Shown: piece by piece, positions 51,830 through 64,000 of the stretch
Numbering within the stretch: position 1 is the first letter of the stretch
Layout of the letters: every line of letters begins with the position of its first letter
Assembly: GCA_000697665.1 (NCBI GenBank)
Contig: KL197719.1
Span: 401,036 to 465,035 of the forward strand
Length of the DNA stretch: 64,000 nucleotides
Origin: Jaapia argillacea MUCL 33604
Lineage: Eukaryota > Basidiomycota > Agaricomycetes > Jaapiales > Jaapiaceae
Direction: 5' to 3'
Notes under the pieces: model-generated
What the model saw: the letters and a program-made list of their open reading frames with translations, nothing else
What the model was told of the DNA's origin: nothing
Database searches by the model: none
Position numbers and translations under genes: made by a program

Positions 51830-53125
51830 ATGCTGAGTCTCAGCAAAAAAAATGAAGCTCTCTTGCGGTTCTGGCTGTATTGGCCACTGTTGCTGTTATT
51901 TCTCACTTCAATACCTTCTGCCGACGAGTTTCGACTCACACATCAATTCTCTCTAGGCAACTCTGGCTTGATGAACTCCTCTCTGGCCATCCAGAATGAT
52001 TCCAAAGGCAGATGGGAATGACACAATTTGTCTTCAGCAAACTTTCCTATGAATTACAGCACAACTGTGGACTTTGGCATAGTCGATACATTGGGGCAGA
52101 GGGGGTGCTTGCAATTTTCCTATCCTTTGCAAGGACAGGAAGCTTTTCTTGAGATCTTCAGGAGAGATTCCAATAGGGGGGTGAAACTATCTCAAAGTGA
52201 GTCAGTCCATCTATTTTGTCTGCTTTATTAATGTATTGACACTATCTGGAAAGGGCCATTCATTGCATCACCAATATATTGGTCTCTGAAGCCCTTCTAC
52301 CCCAAATATCTCTCCCTCCCTGACAACTCTATTTCTCCTGAAATCAGCTCAAACCCAAAATTCTTTCCCTTTTTCAAGGATGCCCTTGGTATAATTGATG
52401 GGTTGTACATGGACATTTTCATTACAGATGAGGATCTCATGCAGTATTGAAATCAGAAGGGTGGGATTACACAGAACATTCTAGCAGTTTGTAGCTTTTT
52501 TATACTATTTCTCTATGTTCTTGCAGGATGGGAGGGAAGTGCAGCAGATAGTCTGATTTTTTGCTATGCTCAGTCTCAAGACTTCATTGTTCCACCAGTG
52601 AAATACTACCTTGCAGATGCAGGTTTTCCTCTGTGTGATGCACTGATGGTGCTCTACCAAGGGGTCTGCTATCATCTCAAAGAATGGTCTTGGTCAATGT
52701 AAACGTGAGTATGGTCCTTTAATTATGTCTTCTTAGGAGTACTCATAAAAACATCTAGGCCACAAAACCGAGAAGAACTTTACAATCTTTGTCATGCATC
52801 TGCTCGAAATGTCATTGAGCATATCTTTGGAGTTGTCAAGAGGTGGTTTGGTTTGATGGTTGCCACACTGGAGTACAGCCCCGCAACTCAGGCAAAATTT
52901 ATTGCTGCAATTTGCACACTCCACAACTTCATTTGCATTCATGATCCTCAGCATACAGTTGATAGTGATAAAGAAGATCGACCACCATTAACTGAAAGGA
53001 GTGAGGTGATTGAAGAGGATTTGGCTTGGATGGATGTTGATATTGATGTGACAGTAGACAAGAAGGAGAGGGCAACAATTCAGAGGGATGGGATTGCACA
53101 GGCAATGTGGGAAAGCTATCAGTGA
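51830..53125 (+). pseudogene. Decayed PIF/Harbinger-type (DDE_Tnp_4) transposase
   Basis: Fragments of a Harbinger-family DDE transposase can be followed across frames. They are PFYPKYISLPDNSISPEI, KFFPFFKDALGIIDGLYMDIF (first acidic-residue region), NQKGGITQNILAVCSF, LYVLAGWEGSAADSLI, KYYLADAGFPLCDALMVLY (second Asp region) and GVCYHLKEW. After a probable intron come RPQNREELYNLCHASARNVIEHIFGVVKRWFGLM and FIAAICTLHNFICIHDP, with an acidic tail to the stop at 53125. An in-frame TGA sits between LMQY and NQKGG, where related proteins have Arg. That is consistent with a CGA to TGA change. The usual Thr-His after the IDG motif is altered. The section 51830-52235 is poorly conserved. No longer expected to be active. 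Confidence 0.8.
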
Positions 53126-53620: not shown

Positions 53621-53704
53621 GAGTGGTGTCTACCAAAATAATCAGCCATAGCACTGTAATCCATTACAAAGGAAGTCCTTACCTGGAGGGGTCCTGGTAA
53701 AGAA

Positions 53705-56388
53705 TTGTACAAAAGTATTGGTTTTCTCTGTAGACCTTAGTCTATACAGATGATGTAAGATATCTAAATGGAAAGGTGATCATCAGAGGGTGAAACAAAT
53801 TGGAAAAAATCAGACAAATGCCAAATAAAATTTCATTAGGGTAGGGGGGCACTTTGGGGTTGTTTGGCTGATGATGTAATGTGCCCAAATAGAAAAGTGA
53901 TTATCAAAGGGCCAAATAATTTGGAAAAATTTGGAAAAATGCCAAATAAAATTTCATTAGGGTAGGAGGGCACTTTGGGGTTGTTTAGCTGATGATGTAA
54001 TGTGCCCTAATAGGAAAGTGGTCATTAGAGGGTCAAATAAATCTGGAAAATTCAGAATAAATCAGAATAAAATTATACTCAGGTGAATAGGTGGTTTCAT
54101 TGTGTTTGCTCAATGATGAAAGATCCCTAAATAGGAAATTCAGTCAATATAGGCCAAATAAACCCAGAAAAATCAGAATAAATAGGAATAAAATCATTCT
54201 AATATAGAGTGATGATTGCTATGGTGGTTGCTTATGGAAGCACCCATTTTTTGTAACTTATGACTTTGTATATGCAAATAGCTCAGACATCTCAGGGGAT
54301 GCTAATAAAATAGTCTTACTTATTTTGGTTGTTATGGTGACATTGTCACTTACTATATATGATAGATATGTATTTCTCAAGATGGTCTGTGATTCTAGAA
54401 TTTGCTTGTTGCCCTGATAGAGTATAGACATGAAAATTACCAAATTTGGAAGTTTATGTAATGTAGGTGTCAATGGATAGCCTGAAGGCAGGGGAACCCA
54501 AAAATACCATGGCCTTATCTGTAGCATTACTACTTGATCTGCTATAAGCCAAACAAAATACAAAAGTGTCCCATTTTGAAATCATTTTGCATTTTGCTGG
54601 AGGTATGGTGTGTCAAATGAGGTAAAGGTACCCATGCTAGGATCTTTCAGATGGGGGCTACAATCCCAGATACTTACATCAGCATTCTCATGACTTTCAT
54701 TTTTCACTGAAACACTTCCTAAAAGGCAGAAATCACCAGTTTGGTTGATGGTCGGATGTCTCAGTGAAGTGGGATAACTCATTTTAGAACCTGGAAGGTG
54801 GGGGCTACAATCTCAGATACTTACATCAACCATTTTGACAACTTCACTTTTCCTGGAACCAACAAGCTGACTCACTGATTTATATTTTGCCAGGCACTTG
54901 AAGAAGGTGAGTCAGTCATGACAGTGTCCTCAGACATCTTTCACATGAGTCCATGACTTGAGATAGTTGGTTTGAGGTGGGTGTCCACCCATAGCAACCA
55001 TCACTTTATATCAGAATGATTCTATTCCTGTTCATTCTGATTTTTCTGGGTTATTTGGCCTATATTGACTGAATTTCCTGTTTAGGGATCTTACATCATT
55101 GAGCAAACACAATGAAACCACCTATTCACCTGAAAATAATTTTATTCTGATTTATTCTGAATTTTCCAGATTTATTTGACCCTCTAATGACCACTTTCCT
55201 ATTAGGGCGCATGACATCATCAGCCAAACAACCCCAGAGTGCCCCCCTACCCTAATGAAATTTTATTTGGCATTTGTCTGATTTTTTCCAATTTGTTTTG
55301 CCCTCTGATAATCACCTTCCTATTTAGGTATCTTACATCATCTGTCCAATAGCCTAAAGAGCACCCTACCCTAATAGAATTTATTTGGATTTTTTCCGAT
55401 TTTATTTGACCCTCTATTTGTTAAGAATCACACTGCACTACGCCTATTTTCATTTTTCTTGTTATCTCAACACTCCTCGTGGATATCTGATCCTTCCATA
55501 TATGGGATTGTCAAGCACTACAATCATATTCCTCCAGTTCACAAGGGACGGGTTCATATCCCTTCAACATCCCTTCGACGCATCCTCATTCCTGCACATC
55601 CAACCTCTAGTGCATTATCCTTCATCTTCGTCACTCTGACTCCTCATTGCCTCATCACTCCACCTTCCAATACGACCCAGGCCATGTACTATGGACCCCT
55701 ATGTCTCTGACTCACAGATCAGACCATTGACTGTGGACTACAGACTACAGACCCCTAACTACGGACTCCTATCCTTCTGACTCACTTCGACTCATGCTTA
55801 CTACTGTCTTACTACTGTCTTACTCATTGCTGCTACGGACTACAGACTGTGCTTCATCCTAGTATATATACTTCCTTGTATTTGCTAGTATTCCCCATCT
55901 TGTTCACTTTGTCAATATAGATCGTTATCTTTATTTGCATTGTCCAAACTTGATCTCTGTCTAATCATCTGTCTGGAAACCTCTGATAGTCTCTCATGCT
56001 CTTGTCATTCTACTTCTGGGGCTGTAGCCTAGGTATCATCAGAGAAGTATCCAAGTCTTACATCATATACTTTGTTGAAGTAACAATCTTAACACCATTG
56101 ACTGGTTGCCTATTTAGGTCTATGACATCATCTGCCAAACCCCAAAGTGCCCCCCTACCTTAACAGAATTTTATTTCGATTTATTTCGATTTATTCCTAT
56201 TTATTTGAGCCCCCACCCTATCCTAGCAACATCTTGTAATACAAAACATATACAATCTGTTTACAATCCATTCATACAGCACACTACATGCACAGCAATT
56301 ACAAAGTTTGCATTCCATTCACAACTTTGTAAAATTCTCCTATATTTATAGACTAAGGTCTACAGAGAAAACCGGTACTGTTGTACAA
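53705..56388. mobile_element. Foldback element with inverted arms made of 121-bp tandem units
   Basis: The left end 53705-53746 and right end 56347-56388 are inverted copies of 42 bp (sharing TCTCTGTAGACCTTAGTCTATA). Inside, the left arm carries ATGATGT-type landmarks at 53750, 53871, 53992 and 54113, a spacing of 121 bp each time. The right arm carries the complementary ACATCAT at 55093, 55214 and 55335, again 121 bp apart. A further landmark at 56125 lies beyond a nested LTR. Each unit contains blocks such as CAAATAAAATTTCATTAGGG and GGGGCACTTTGGGGTTGTTT. The central 54230-54990 loop has no coding potential but contains two copies of GGGGGCTACAATC.CAGATACTTACATCA. The structure fits a non-autonomous foldback transposon; no transposase is inside. 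Confidence 0.8.
55419..56094 (+). mobile_element. Solo LTR (676 bp) nested in the right arm of the foldback element
   Basis: It begins TGTTAAG and ends CTTAACA, a perfect 7-bp terminal inverted pair, and is flanked by CTATT (55414-55418) and CCATT (56095-56099), a 5-bp target-site duplication with one change. A TATA-like TAGTATATATAC lies near 55860. Removing the LTR and one flank restores the interrupted foldback arm (GACCCTCTATTGACTGG). No internal retroelement sequence or partner LTR is present, so it looks like a product of LTR-LTR recombination. Confidence 0.8.
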
Positions 56389-56884
56389 AAGATAGTAGAG
56401 ACCTGTGGACATCGAGAGGTGATATGAATTGCAATGTCACAATCTTGTTGATGCCAAATCCTTGCCATCTCCTCAGTCCAAAACCTCATTAGTCCATCAA
56501 ACTCGGCCATCATAATACATGAGTGATCCATCAGAACGTTCATACAAGAGACATGCTTGGTGCTATCATTGCTATCCAGCACCAAGTTCCAACTACAATC
56601 CTCATTGTATTGCATCCTGAGGAGAGAGTTGACGAGGCCTTGTTGCCATGACTTGAAGATTGAAATGGAGGGTCCCTTCATCAGTCCATGCAGTCCAGAT
56701 TACTGATTAACTGAGTGAGCAAAAGGAGTTGGTCCACAGGGATTTGAGAGGCAAGCAGGTGATTGTCGGTGGAGGAGAGAGCGATCGATGACATTGTCAG
56801 TGATGTGAATGGTGAGGGTATGGTGTGAGTAGGTATTGGTGATGCTATGGGTGCTTCTGGGACTTCATTCAGATAAGTGAGCAT
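56346..56884 (-). pseudogene. Repeat-associated ORF, family copy a (unknown function)
   Basis: Two open pieces, 56884-56681 and 56681-56346, read into each other across a stop at about 56681. Recognisable parts are SISIFKSWQQGLVNSLLRMQ, CSWNLVLDSNDSTKHVSCMN and FDGLMRFWTEEMARIW. A counterpart occurs near 61900-62080 (minus), where SINLFMSWRSSMIDTLGKIL and TWTRGLTTDDSMSD align with the same spacing. The family is unknown to me; a structural (gag-like) transposon protein is possible. Its 3' end lies in the 42-bp inverted repeat bounding the foldback element. Confidence 0.3.
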
Positions 56885-58094: not shown

Positions 58095-59381
58095 TCACCT
58101 CCCATAGATCCTGACTATGAAGTCACCCTGAATCTCAGTCAACACATTTGGAGGTCCTCTGGGAGGGGTAGCCTGTAGCAGGATCTTGTCAATCTTCCCC
58201 TGATTTGGCAATCTCCCTTGTGGCGTACACTTCTGTCCCACAATCAATACTTCTGGCTGACACATCTGGATCTTCCCTGGTGAGAATGATCCTCCAGCTT
58301 CTCCCATCCTGTGCATTATCCTGTGGATGTCTAGAGCATGTTCCCAGATGAACCGGTGTATACCAGGGTTCTCTTTTAGGTGTTCAGGATTCCGAGTCTC
58401 ATCCAAATATTGAGTGACAGGCCCCTTGATGGGCAGGTCATCAATGAAAACATTACATATATGGGGGATCTCATCCTTCAACAGAAAAACCATACATGCC
58501 TGAAACTCACCCACTGCATTAGTGTAGCCCATTGGCATTGATGTCAGCCTCATTAGGCCCAAAGGCATCATAAATGCAGTGAGATCTCTACTAGATTTGT
58601 CTACTATCCTCGCATCATACCCTGAGAACAGATCCAATACCGTATAACACTACCATCCTGCAAATGGCTCAATGAAATCATCTAAGATAGGTGGTAGGTT
58701 GGTGTCCCTGATAGACACCACATTCAAGGGCTGAAGGTCATGTACCAATCTTAGCTTCCCATTCTTTTTCAGAATGCAGAACCACCTAGATCCATAAGAT
58801 GACTGACAGGGCTCATATACCCCTGCTTTGATCTTATCTCTCAAGATCTTCACTGGTGGGATTGGAATGTTAGGATGCACCCAAGGAACATGAGGAACAG
58901 TCGGCATGATGTAGGGTGAGAAGTAATCATTCCTAACAGTCCCTCTCTGACTGTCCTTGAATGCCAAAGTCCTCTCATTTAGGATCAAAATGTGCTTGAA
59001 CAACTTTTCCTCCTCTGGAAGAAGGAACCCATCAGTATTCACCTTTATCACTTCCATTGCTTCCTCTGAAATCCTCTCAGTCGGCTTGAATTCTGGGGGG
59101 TGAGATGACAACTTAGGAAGATTCTGCAAGGGATCTCCCAGAATCTGCCTTTTCACCTTCACATACTCTGGAAACACTCCTGGAATTGGCCTAACTTTCC
59201 TATCCACTGTCTTGTACATAGTCCCCACCCAAGGAGGTATGTACTCTTTCCAAGTCTCAACTGCAAACCCTGGATGATCATCCTTCATCTTATTCAGGAC
59301 CTTGTACACCATCTCATCATCCAGAAGATTCAGATCGTTTAGAGTATCCACCGACACCCATTTATGCAACTTCGGTTGCAC
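58095..59381 (-). pseudogene. Ty3/Gypsy-type reverse transcriptase fragment
   Basis: The frame from 59381 (MQPKLHKWVSVDTLN) contains LRDKIKAGVYEPCQSSYGSRWFCILKKNGKLRLVHDLQPLN, the RT entry region. It hits a stop at 58650-58652, right after FIEPFAGW. It resumes in frame with CYTVLDLFSGYDARIVDKSSRDL, then GLMRLTSMPMGYTNAVGEFQ and the catalytic box FIDDLPIKG, then PGIHRFIWEHALDIHRIMHRMG. Reading ends at 58095 just where RNase H would start (NVLTEIQGDFI). Protease and integrase were not found. A short minus-strand ORF at 59505-59753 may be a further upstream remnant of the same element. The element is dead: one stop plus loss of the 3' half. Confidence 0.8.
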
Positions 59382-61550: not shown

Positions 61551-61670
61551 TCAACACCAGATAATGATGAGAAATAAGGGGCCAAAAGACAATCCGAGCT
61601 GAAAACAAATGTAAAGACAAAACAATCAATATATGCGAAAGTGAAGAAGGGGGAAGAGAAGACAACAAAA

Positions 61671-61822
61671 GAAAGAATTCAAAGGTCTTACTGGCTGTCC
61701 CCTCTCTCGCCAATAGTGAGCATTGGTGCACTGAATGGCAATCTCAGAAAGAATTCAAAGGTCTTACTGGCTGTCCCTTCTCTCGCCAACAGTGAGCATT
61801 GGTGCACTGAATGGCAATCTCA
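61671..61822. repeat. 76-bp direct tandem duplication (two copies)
   Basis: Units 61671-61746 and 61747-61822 begin GAAAGAATTCAAAGGTCTTA and are identical except for two transitions (C/T each). The near-identity points to a recent duplication. Confidence 0.88.
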
Positions 61823-62723: not shown

Positions 62724-63323
62724 TCAGTGAGGCAGAAGTCGCAGGTCGATGCAGTCGTCACTAGTAGTACTCGTAGAGTTGTCAGATTTGCCTGGCTCAG
62801 ATGACAGAACATATTCCCCTTCAGGAGGAACACAAACCATCATTACCATGGGGTCTCTTAAGTTGAAAGGAGGGACATCTGGGGCAGAGAGTGGTGGAAG
62901 CTCAAGGAAAGACATATCCTGGGGGTATTTTAAAGGGTTGAGAACAAGCGTGTTGTAGTAGTAAGTGATGTCATCGTCAGGCTCCCACTCTCCGTCCTCT
63001 GAGCTCAAGGTTGAGCAAGGGCAGAGTTCAGGCATAGAGTCCCTGGACTCCTTGCCTTTGTCAATGGGAGGCAGCGAGACTTGGAACATAAGTGAACAAG
63101 GCACTATTGCAGCAAATAAGCTTTGATCAGCATTAGGCAGGATGTCTTCCTGTTGGCTAACCCACTGACAATTGATTACAGTGGGGGATAGGTAAACCAA
63201 ACCAACACCAACAAATCGTTCTGGATCATCATTGATCAGGAATAATAGAGTTAGTGGATATTCAAGAGAAGCACTGAGAATGAGAAGCCTCCGGTAGCAG
63301 TGTGCCTCAAAACTAATGATCAA
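62724..63323 (-). CDS. Unknown ORF upstream of repeat-associated copy c
   Basis: About 200 codons on the minus strand. The centre has SLPPIDKGKESRDSMPELCPC and a region EDGEWEPDDDITYYYNT followed by PPLSAPDVPPFNLRDPMVMM, again acidic then proline-rich. It may be a 5' exon of the same gene as copy c, because the 57-bp gap could be an intron, but no firm splice pair was established. No domain is recognised. Confidence 0.3.
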   Translation of the reverse strand: MIISFEAHCYRRLLILSASLEYPLTLLFLINDDPERFVGVGLVYLSPTVINCQWVSQQEDILPNADQSLFAAIVPCSLMFQVSLPPIDKGKESRDSMPELCPCSTLSSEDGEWEPDDDITYYYNTLVLNPLKYPQDMSFLELPPLSAPDVPPFNLRDPMVMMVCVPPEGEYVLSSEPGKSDNSTSTTSDDCIDLRLLPH

Positions 63324-63325
63324 TT

Positions 63326-63421
63326 TCTGATAATCTTATCTTCGTCACTCTCGGCCTCAAATACTGATCAGTGTCTGATAATCTTATCTTCGTCACTCTC
63401 GGCCTCAAATACTGATCAGTG
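63326..63421. repeat. 48-bp direct tandem duplication (two perfect copies plus degenerate lead-in)
   Basis: Units 63326-63373 and 63374-63421 start TCTGATAATCTTATCTTCGT and are identical. The sequence before the first copy (CTAATGATCAATT) resembles the unit end (ACTGATCAGTG), suggesting a decayed earlier copy. Confidence 0.9.
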
Positions 63422-64000
63422 TCTGCTAGAACTGGACTTGGCTCCGTCTAATGATTTTCTCAAGCTGTAATTCAGAGGGTAAAAGTTGTTCAATTGCACT
63501 TTGGGCTGTCCTTTTATAGATTAGTCCAAGGCTGTGTAATAAATACAAATTCTAAATACTGGAAAAAGCGAATATTTACAATGTCCAATCCTCTCTGTTG
63601 GTCCATATCAGCTCTTAATGGGGGCTATGCCTGTCCATGTGGATTTCCATATGGTCCTGTGGAGCCTTCCCACAGCCTCACACAGCCCTGTGGTTGTACT
63701 ATCCAGACCTTCCTGGACCAACACAGCCTCCCTTTCACCAAATCATGCTTATGCCTGCTCATGACATCATTGCTCAGTCTCCCAATGTTTAGATGTCTGG
63801 ATGTGTGCTTCTGCCTGTGCTGACTTGATGGAAATGATTCTGATACTGACTTGGTGCTGAATTCTCTCCTCTTGGCAGGGTATAAAAAATCAACAAAAAT
63901 TGCCATAAATATCCTAGATCCTCCCCCTTTCCTATGCTGAAGAGCTGGAGCTGGTGGGTTCATCCTAGAGAAGCGTAGGAATTTATGAGCATTGATTTGA
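63422..64000. other. Window end, no gene recognised
   Basis: About 580 bp of AT-rich sequence with short open frames on both strands, none resembling a known protein. Probably still within the repeat region. Confidence 0.4.

Follow-up and report, generated by a model that had tools for sequence, protein, structure and literature searches.

A decayed foldback element with satellite arms in the fungus Jaapia argillacea, probably mobilised in trans by a KDZ transposase

Inverted arms that carry tandem repeats are known from transposons of Drosophila. In the part of its published account used here, Tetris of Drosophila virilis has long inverted arms of three domains (terminal, tandem repeats and inner), is non-autonomous and occurs in rearranged forms with changes in unit copy number (PMC4079207). 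Galileo, a Drosophila foldback of the P superfamily, has tandem repeats inside its inverted ends, and these repeats are said to contain additional transposase binding sites (via PMC4079207). In the excerpts considered, Kyakuja elements have 7-bp target-site duplications (TSDs), CA..TG ends and no terminal inverted repeats (PMC12730594), and the Cryptococcus elements KDZ1-3 have inverted ends of 139-241 bp and 4-8-bp duplications (PMC12810828). The present analysis concerns an element of the basidiomycete Jaapia argillacea MUCL 33604, within a window of 64,000 nucleotides (contig KL197719.1, hereafter C11, positions 401036-465035) that was compared with the whole genome (43.7 Mb, 95 contigs). 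The element occupies 53686-56407 of the window on the forward strand (2722 bp), and its long inverted arms composed of tandem subrepeats place it among the foldbacks. We read it as a decayed, non-autonomous foldback DNA transposon that was probably mobilised in trans by a KDZ transposase.

Since Tetris has the same arm plan, the foldback design was already known. The preliminary description of this locus knew of no named fungal element with such a design; no fungal foldback, KDZ-linked foldback or non-autonomous Kyakuja was found in the searches made of open-licence PMC papers, but the animal counterparts Tetris and Galileo have been described. As far as the excerpted account goes, the tandem repeats of Tetris measure about 220 bp, compared with 121 bp here, its target duplications are 8-10 bp long, a Mutator affiliation was suggested and the host is a fly (PMC4079207). 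Tetris repeats gave rise to large satellite arrays (PMC4079207), whereas none were seen here. Galileo, to the extent that the same source treats it, differs in having a P-type transposase where a KDZ link is seen here. A further difference is the place of the TTGTACAA motif, which the present element has in its terminal domain and not in the aligned 121-bp units. According to the excerpts on them, Kyakuja and KDZ1-3 are coding elements of about 9-11 kb (PMC12730594, PMC12810828), whereas the copies described here are short foldbacks in which no gene was recognised. The element is not filed as a Kyakuja member and could at most be a non-autonomous relative.

The inverted 121-bp tandem arrays noticed in the preliminary description are real. 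The left arm (53749-54224, plus strand) contained units at 53749, 53870 and 53991 and a shorter fourth unit at 54112-54224. The right arm mirrors it on the minus strand in two parts: an inner part of three units and the start of a fourth (54989-55418), and the outer rest of the fourth unit (56100-56199). Unit families in the right arm were spaced 121 bp apart and once 109 bp. The arms matched in inverted orientation over 314 nt at 90% identity without gaps and over 419 nt at 89% by BLAST, with a 764-bp middle between them. When the inserted long terminal repeat (LTR) described below was left out, 435 of 506 aligned positions matched along the whole arms, and the local alignment score of 601 compared with at most 35 in 200 mononucleotide shuffles. 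The inverted repeat at the ends (47 nt at 89%; 42 nt at 93% by BLAST) and the direct repeat within the middle (85 nt, 71%, spacing 147; 54630-54714 and 54777-54861, plus strand) were likewise recovered.

The left tip, of the GAGGGGTCCTGG... type, and a truncated terminal domain together occupy 53686-53746 (plus strand), with TTGTACAA at 53705-53712. The right terminal domain (56200-56388, minus strand) is 189 bp long and ends in TTGTACAA (56381-56388). It is followed by the right tip (56389-56407, minus strand), which is of the CACTAGTCCC... type and reads CACAGGTCTC in the window copy. The element had been placed at 53705-56388; the conserved tips, common to other copies on unlike flanks, run 19 bp further out on each side. 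Once the inserted LTR and a single copy of its duplication are subtracted, about 2041 bp of the element remain. Eight open reading frames (ORFs) of at least 60 aa overlapped it, the longest wholly inside having 110 aa, and the three of at least 90 aa wholly inside had no Pfam match at E 0.05.

Units within the left arm were 65-84% alike, whereas the best counterparts across the arms reached 93% (L4/R1), 97% (L3/R2) and 94% (L1/R3). These unit comparisons suggest that the units arose before the arms were last equalised and that one pairing register is favoured; the multiple registers proposed earlier are thus doubtful. The second unit of the left arm, L2, had no right-arm partner of its own and was 86% identical to R3. 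The left arm therefore has one extra unit, which supports the arm-length change that had been suggested, occurring by whole units, and tells against registers that slide freely.

The 764-bp middle (54225-54988, plus strand), initially called a loop, gave at least 50 matches at 32 places in the genome, and the arms gave matches at 24 places. Together, arm or loop matches were found at no fewer than 43 places (merged within 5 kb). Seven other copies contained loop sequence in both orientations within one place (C32, C11:20293, C26, C36, C25, C24 and C9), and long inverted loop pairs were confirmed in all of these except C9. The middle is therefore the inner part of an arm: a segment of the described size exists, but in the window copy it is an arm domain missing its inverted partner. 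Among the full copies the clearest is C11:20293-23537 (3245 bp). Alignment of its arms, about 1.3 and 1.4 kb long, spanned 1433 columns with matches at 1163 of 1272 aligned positions, and its centre measures about 526 bp. In this family an arm is modular: a tip and a terminal domain that carries TTGTACAA-type motifs are followed by tandem units of about 121 bp and then by an inner domain of about 760 bp. A mirror-image second arm follows after a short centre. The window copy is without one inner domain and without the centre.

A separate high-copy repeat of 676 bp, foreign to the foldback, interrupts the right arm at 55419-56094 (plus strand, TGTTAAGA...TCTTAACA). It is bordered by a 5-bp duplication (CTATT at 55414-55418, CCATT at 56095-56099; 4/5 match), and nearly the same 676 bp recurred at 36 or more other places in the genome at 85-93% identity. 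Among the matches listed, three same-strand pairs of near-full-length copies lay within 10 kb (C3:1575027/1582011, C33:236505/242791 and C4:838750/847144), and all three enclosed a same-strand match to rve, the integrase core (E 5e-6 to 2e-5, each under Pfam's cut-off). A further pair on C18, 0.5 kb apart and with one partial member, enclosed no integrase-core match. The repeat is read as an LTR that stands solo in the window. With it left out, the right arm proceeds to its fourth unit and the 189-bp terminal domain.

Reading outward from the terminal domain, two constant tips were found across the genome, GAGGGGTCCTGGTAAACT.. and CACTAGTCCCTGTTAACTA... With up to two mismatches allowed, there were 16 left and 6 right tip matches, compared with three and one for the reversed control patterns. 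The 25 tips examined comprised 15 of the 16 left matches, all 6 right matches and 4 more found by alignment; C35:29147 and C6:1491609 were left out, as were the weaker matches C47:128225, C24:508680 and C45:229604. Among the 200-base outer flanks of these tips no pair was alike at E 1e-3. The two tips of the element are asymmetric and only partly alike. Copies at many places with the same two tips on unlike flanks bear out the expectation that other copies and consistent ends would be found.

The TTGTACAA motif stood at tip bases 20-27 in 18 of the 25 tips, and TAGTACAA or TACTACAA stood there in six others; in the C9 tip a 2-base deletion shifts its position. The density of motif hexamers (GTACAA or TTGTAC, a full octamer counting twice) per 250 bp was 4.0 within the tips, 0.04 across the outer flanks (24 available) and 0.13 over the remainder of the window. 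That TTGTACAA is itself the 8-bp target duplication of a hAT-like element was considered and ruled out, because the motif lies at the same inner distance in 18 of the 25 tips and homology extends 19 bp beyond it.

Both tips were present in five copies (the window copy, C11:20293, C36, C54 and C65), and TSDs were found in two of these. C11:20293-23537 is flanked by CCTGAGC on both sides (7/7), and its joined flanks give one open frame of 176 codons that spans the site. C36:250770-253665 has GGACCCT and GGACCCC (6/7). Both recall the 7-bp duplications of Kyakuja, as given in the excerpt cited above. When the C36 flanks were joined with one 7-bp copy, they aligned unbroken to 17 paralogues of a gypsy-like pol region that lack the insertion (83-94% identity), and also matched more distant pol paralogues. 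The 7-base query overlap of C36's own flanks results from the joining and is not independent. Each of the 17 empty-site paralogues is 0-2 bases shorter than the query stretch; since the position of these gaps was not seen, the 7-bp length is firm within a base or two. C36 contains a stretch of N, but its two flanks come together in a single target.

A local inverted duplication of a satellite array, rather than a mobile element, would fit the window copy taken by itself: its flanks agree at 1/7 positions, at most 3/6 match when duplication lengths of 2-10 are compared, and its joined flanks matched only themselves in the genome search, so that no paralogous empty site was found. The absence of a TSD in three of the five two-tipped copies (C65 at 1/7 and C54 at 4/7 being the others) also counts against a mobile element. 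A local duplication is nevertheless extremely unlikely. It is already contradicted by the empty sites of C36, the 7-bp duplications in two relatives and the same tips on 25 mutually unlike flanks, in a family of many copies. The proposal of a mobile foldback with satellite arms is borne out by these copies, ends and duplications. That the window copy has no duplication, a shortened left terminal domain and only one inner domain suggests that it was rearranged or recombined. As for C54:45996-48790, its left flank resembles the interior of a family member on C45, and its right flank has an integrase-core match under Pfam's cut-off and looks copia-like by eye. Since C54 contains an N stretch and its flanks come from different sequences, its halves may not belong together and a scaffolding error is possible.

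Four tip loci (L070, L071, L074 and L078) run into N stretches. These may be assembly gaps, and copy number and arm lengths may therefore be underestimates. At L078 (C21:164782) a right tip of the window's subfamily lies inside an ORF that we take to be gag-like. Arm or loop matches were seen at or near contig ends at C14:887111-887406, C22:646118-646250, C65, C25, C49 and C11:20293, as is expected of inverted repeats that are hard to assemble or of subtelomeres. Copies near contig ends, together with the long complementary arms, would also suit a host role, in which the arms persist as a source of small RNA or as chromosome-end satellites. This is very unlikely, as the window copy is interrupted and partly deleted in the way of unselected repeats.

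A second subfamily (C11:20293, C32:161497, C24:510895, C18:759230 and C25:10512) contained the same inner domain with the tips CAGCCGCTG.. and CACCAGATG.., and a further tip of this kind was found at C49:9635. Its motifs are of the TTGCAA type instead of TTGTACAA, and the units of C11:20293 have a period of about 110-121 bp. Its ends read CAG... and CAC...; in the window's subfamily one end reads CAC... and the opposite one GAG.... A common inner domain paired with other tips means that one arm design occurs with two terminal designs. The CA..TG ends of the second subfamily may be a likeness to KDZ elements, as far as the excerpts describe these; another likeness is a KDZ gene with a cysteine-cluster domain that lies beside the same tip on C22.

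The predicted product of this gene (C22:591.4-594.0 kb) has KDZ and CxC2 domains (E 1.9e-19, 4.1e-36 and 2.9e-15). Behind the last frame of the gene, which ends at C22:593981, comes a tail of 1178 bp that contains 10 TTGTACAA motifs and 224-bp tandem repeats. Beyond the tail lies a tip identical over 27 bp to the tips at C1:338343, C6:1507116, C36:250770 and C49:27995. The tail was considered as a repeat that might stand beside other KDZ genes; it matched only its own place, and this was ruled out. Other ORFs lie upstream of the gene within C22:586000-593983, one of which presumably resembles the N-terminal domain of fungal RNase H. The KDZ profile (PF18758) gave 71 matches in the genome, forming 41 loci after hand merging, the C22 gene among them. 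Within 10 kb, five of the 41 loci lay inward of arms or tips and two outward, with one on both sides; within 15 kb the counts were five and three. A further KDZ gene, on C1 (450666-451441), has loop and arm sequence 5.6 kb outward of it, and a tip-like GAGGCGTCC is legible by eye beyond that arm.

Several results speak against KDZ as the mover. The excess of KDZ loci inward of arms is weak and proves nothing alone. None of the five two-tipped copies contained a KDZ match, and in no case were both tips seen to enclose a KDZ gene. A search of 3.6 kb upstream did not reveal the left end of the C22 element, whose tail has no second match in the genome and whose tip matches the left tip of the window copy at only 23 of 27 positions. 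Kyakuja, in the excerpt cited, is without inverted ends, whereas the family here has long inverted arms. The transposase profile search of the genome was for KDZ, with no hAT or MULE search made. Another mover of the cut-and-paste kind, such as a hAT transposase with 7-bp duplications, might have served the same mobile family, and the link to KDZ comes from one locus with a shared tip and motif density. We consider such a mover unlikely, though less so than a local duplication or a host role, since a KDZ gene is followed shortly by a tip that shares all 27 bp with four foldback-type tips, together with the same motif, and KDZ genes are plentiful.

Mobilisation in trans by a KDZ transposase is the likeliest account, given the tip and motif next to the C22 gene and the 7-bp duplications known from Kyakuja. 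A transposase supplied in trans would bind the repeated TTGTACAA motifs near the tips (TTGCAA in the second subfamily) and would cut and paste the foldback. Its likeliest source would be a KDZ element of the Kyakuja type such as that on C22, with the same tip and motif. The tandem units would gain and lose copies, so that the arms come to differ by one unit. The window copy would then have lost one inner domain and part of its left terminal domain, and would have received an LTR retrotransposon that left the solo LTR; as its flanks carry no duplication, it probably recombined with another copy. More tentatively, and with the odds slightly against it in our judgement, the KDZ superfamily may also move satellite-arm foldbacks, the same arms being combined with TTGTACAA- or TTGCAA-type terminal domains and perhaps served by transposases of different specificity.

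The family member on C45 (C45:227738-232755; L082, L087) has a tip, units and an inner domain; beyond these lie several kb of different interior sequence. This interior contains a cysteine-rich ORF without a Pfam match, and part of it also occurs at C54:45446-45995 (86%). It was considered as a transposase source and rejected: of five of its ORFs searched, four had no Pfam match, the fifth had a match to a Dcr1-like dsRNA-binding domain (E 0.024, under the cut-off) that is taken as chance, and there was no KDZ match on C45.

In the neighbourhood of the element, a PIF/Harbinger-type transposase fragment (DDE_Tnp_4, E 3.4e-7) lies just to the left at 52709-53122, and a reverse-transcriptase-like ORF (RVT_1, E 1.4e-4, below Pfam's cut-off) lies on the minus strand at 58098-58649. 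AT content is higher over the last 12 kb of the window than elsewhere in it. Further tandem repeats were found at 61670-61822 (76 bp x 2.0, 97%) and 63304-63425 (48 bp x 2.5, 93%).

If the reading of a KDZ-linked fungal foldback is true, it would extend the independent origins of the foldback design to one more superfamily and to a fungus. It would also supply candidate motifs whose binding by KDZ transposases can be tested, and a tractable system for the gain and loss of satellite units by arms.
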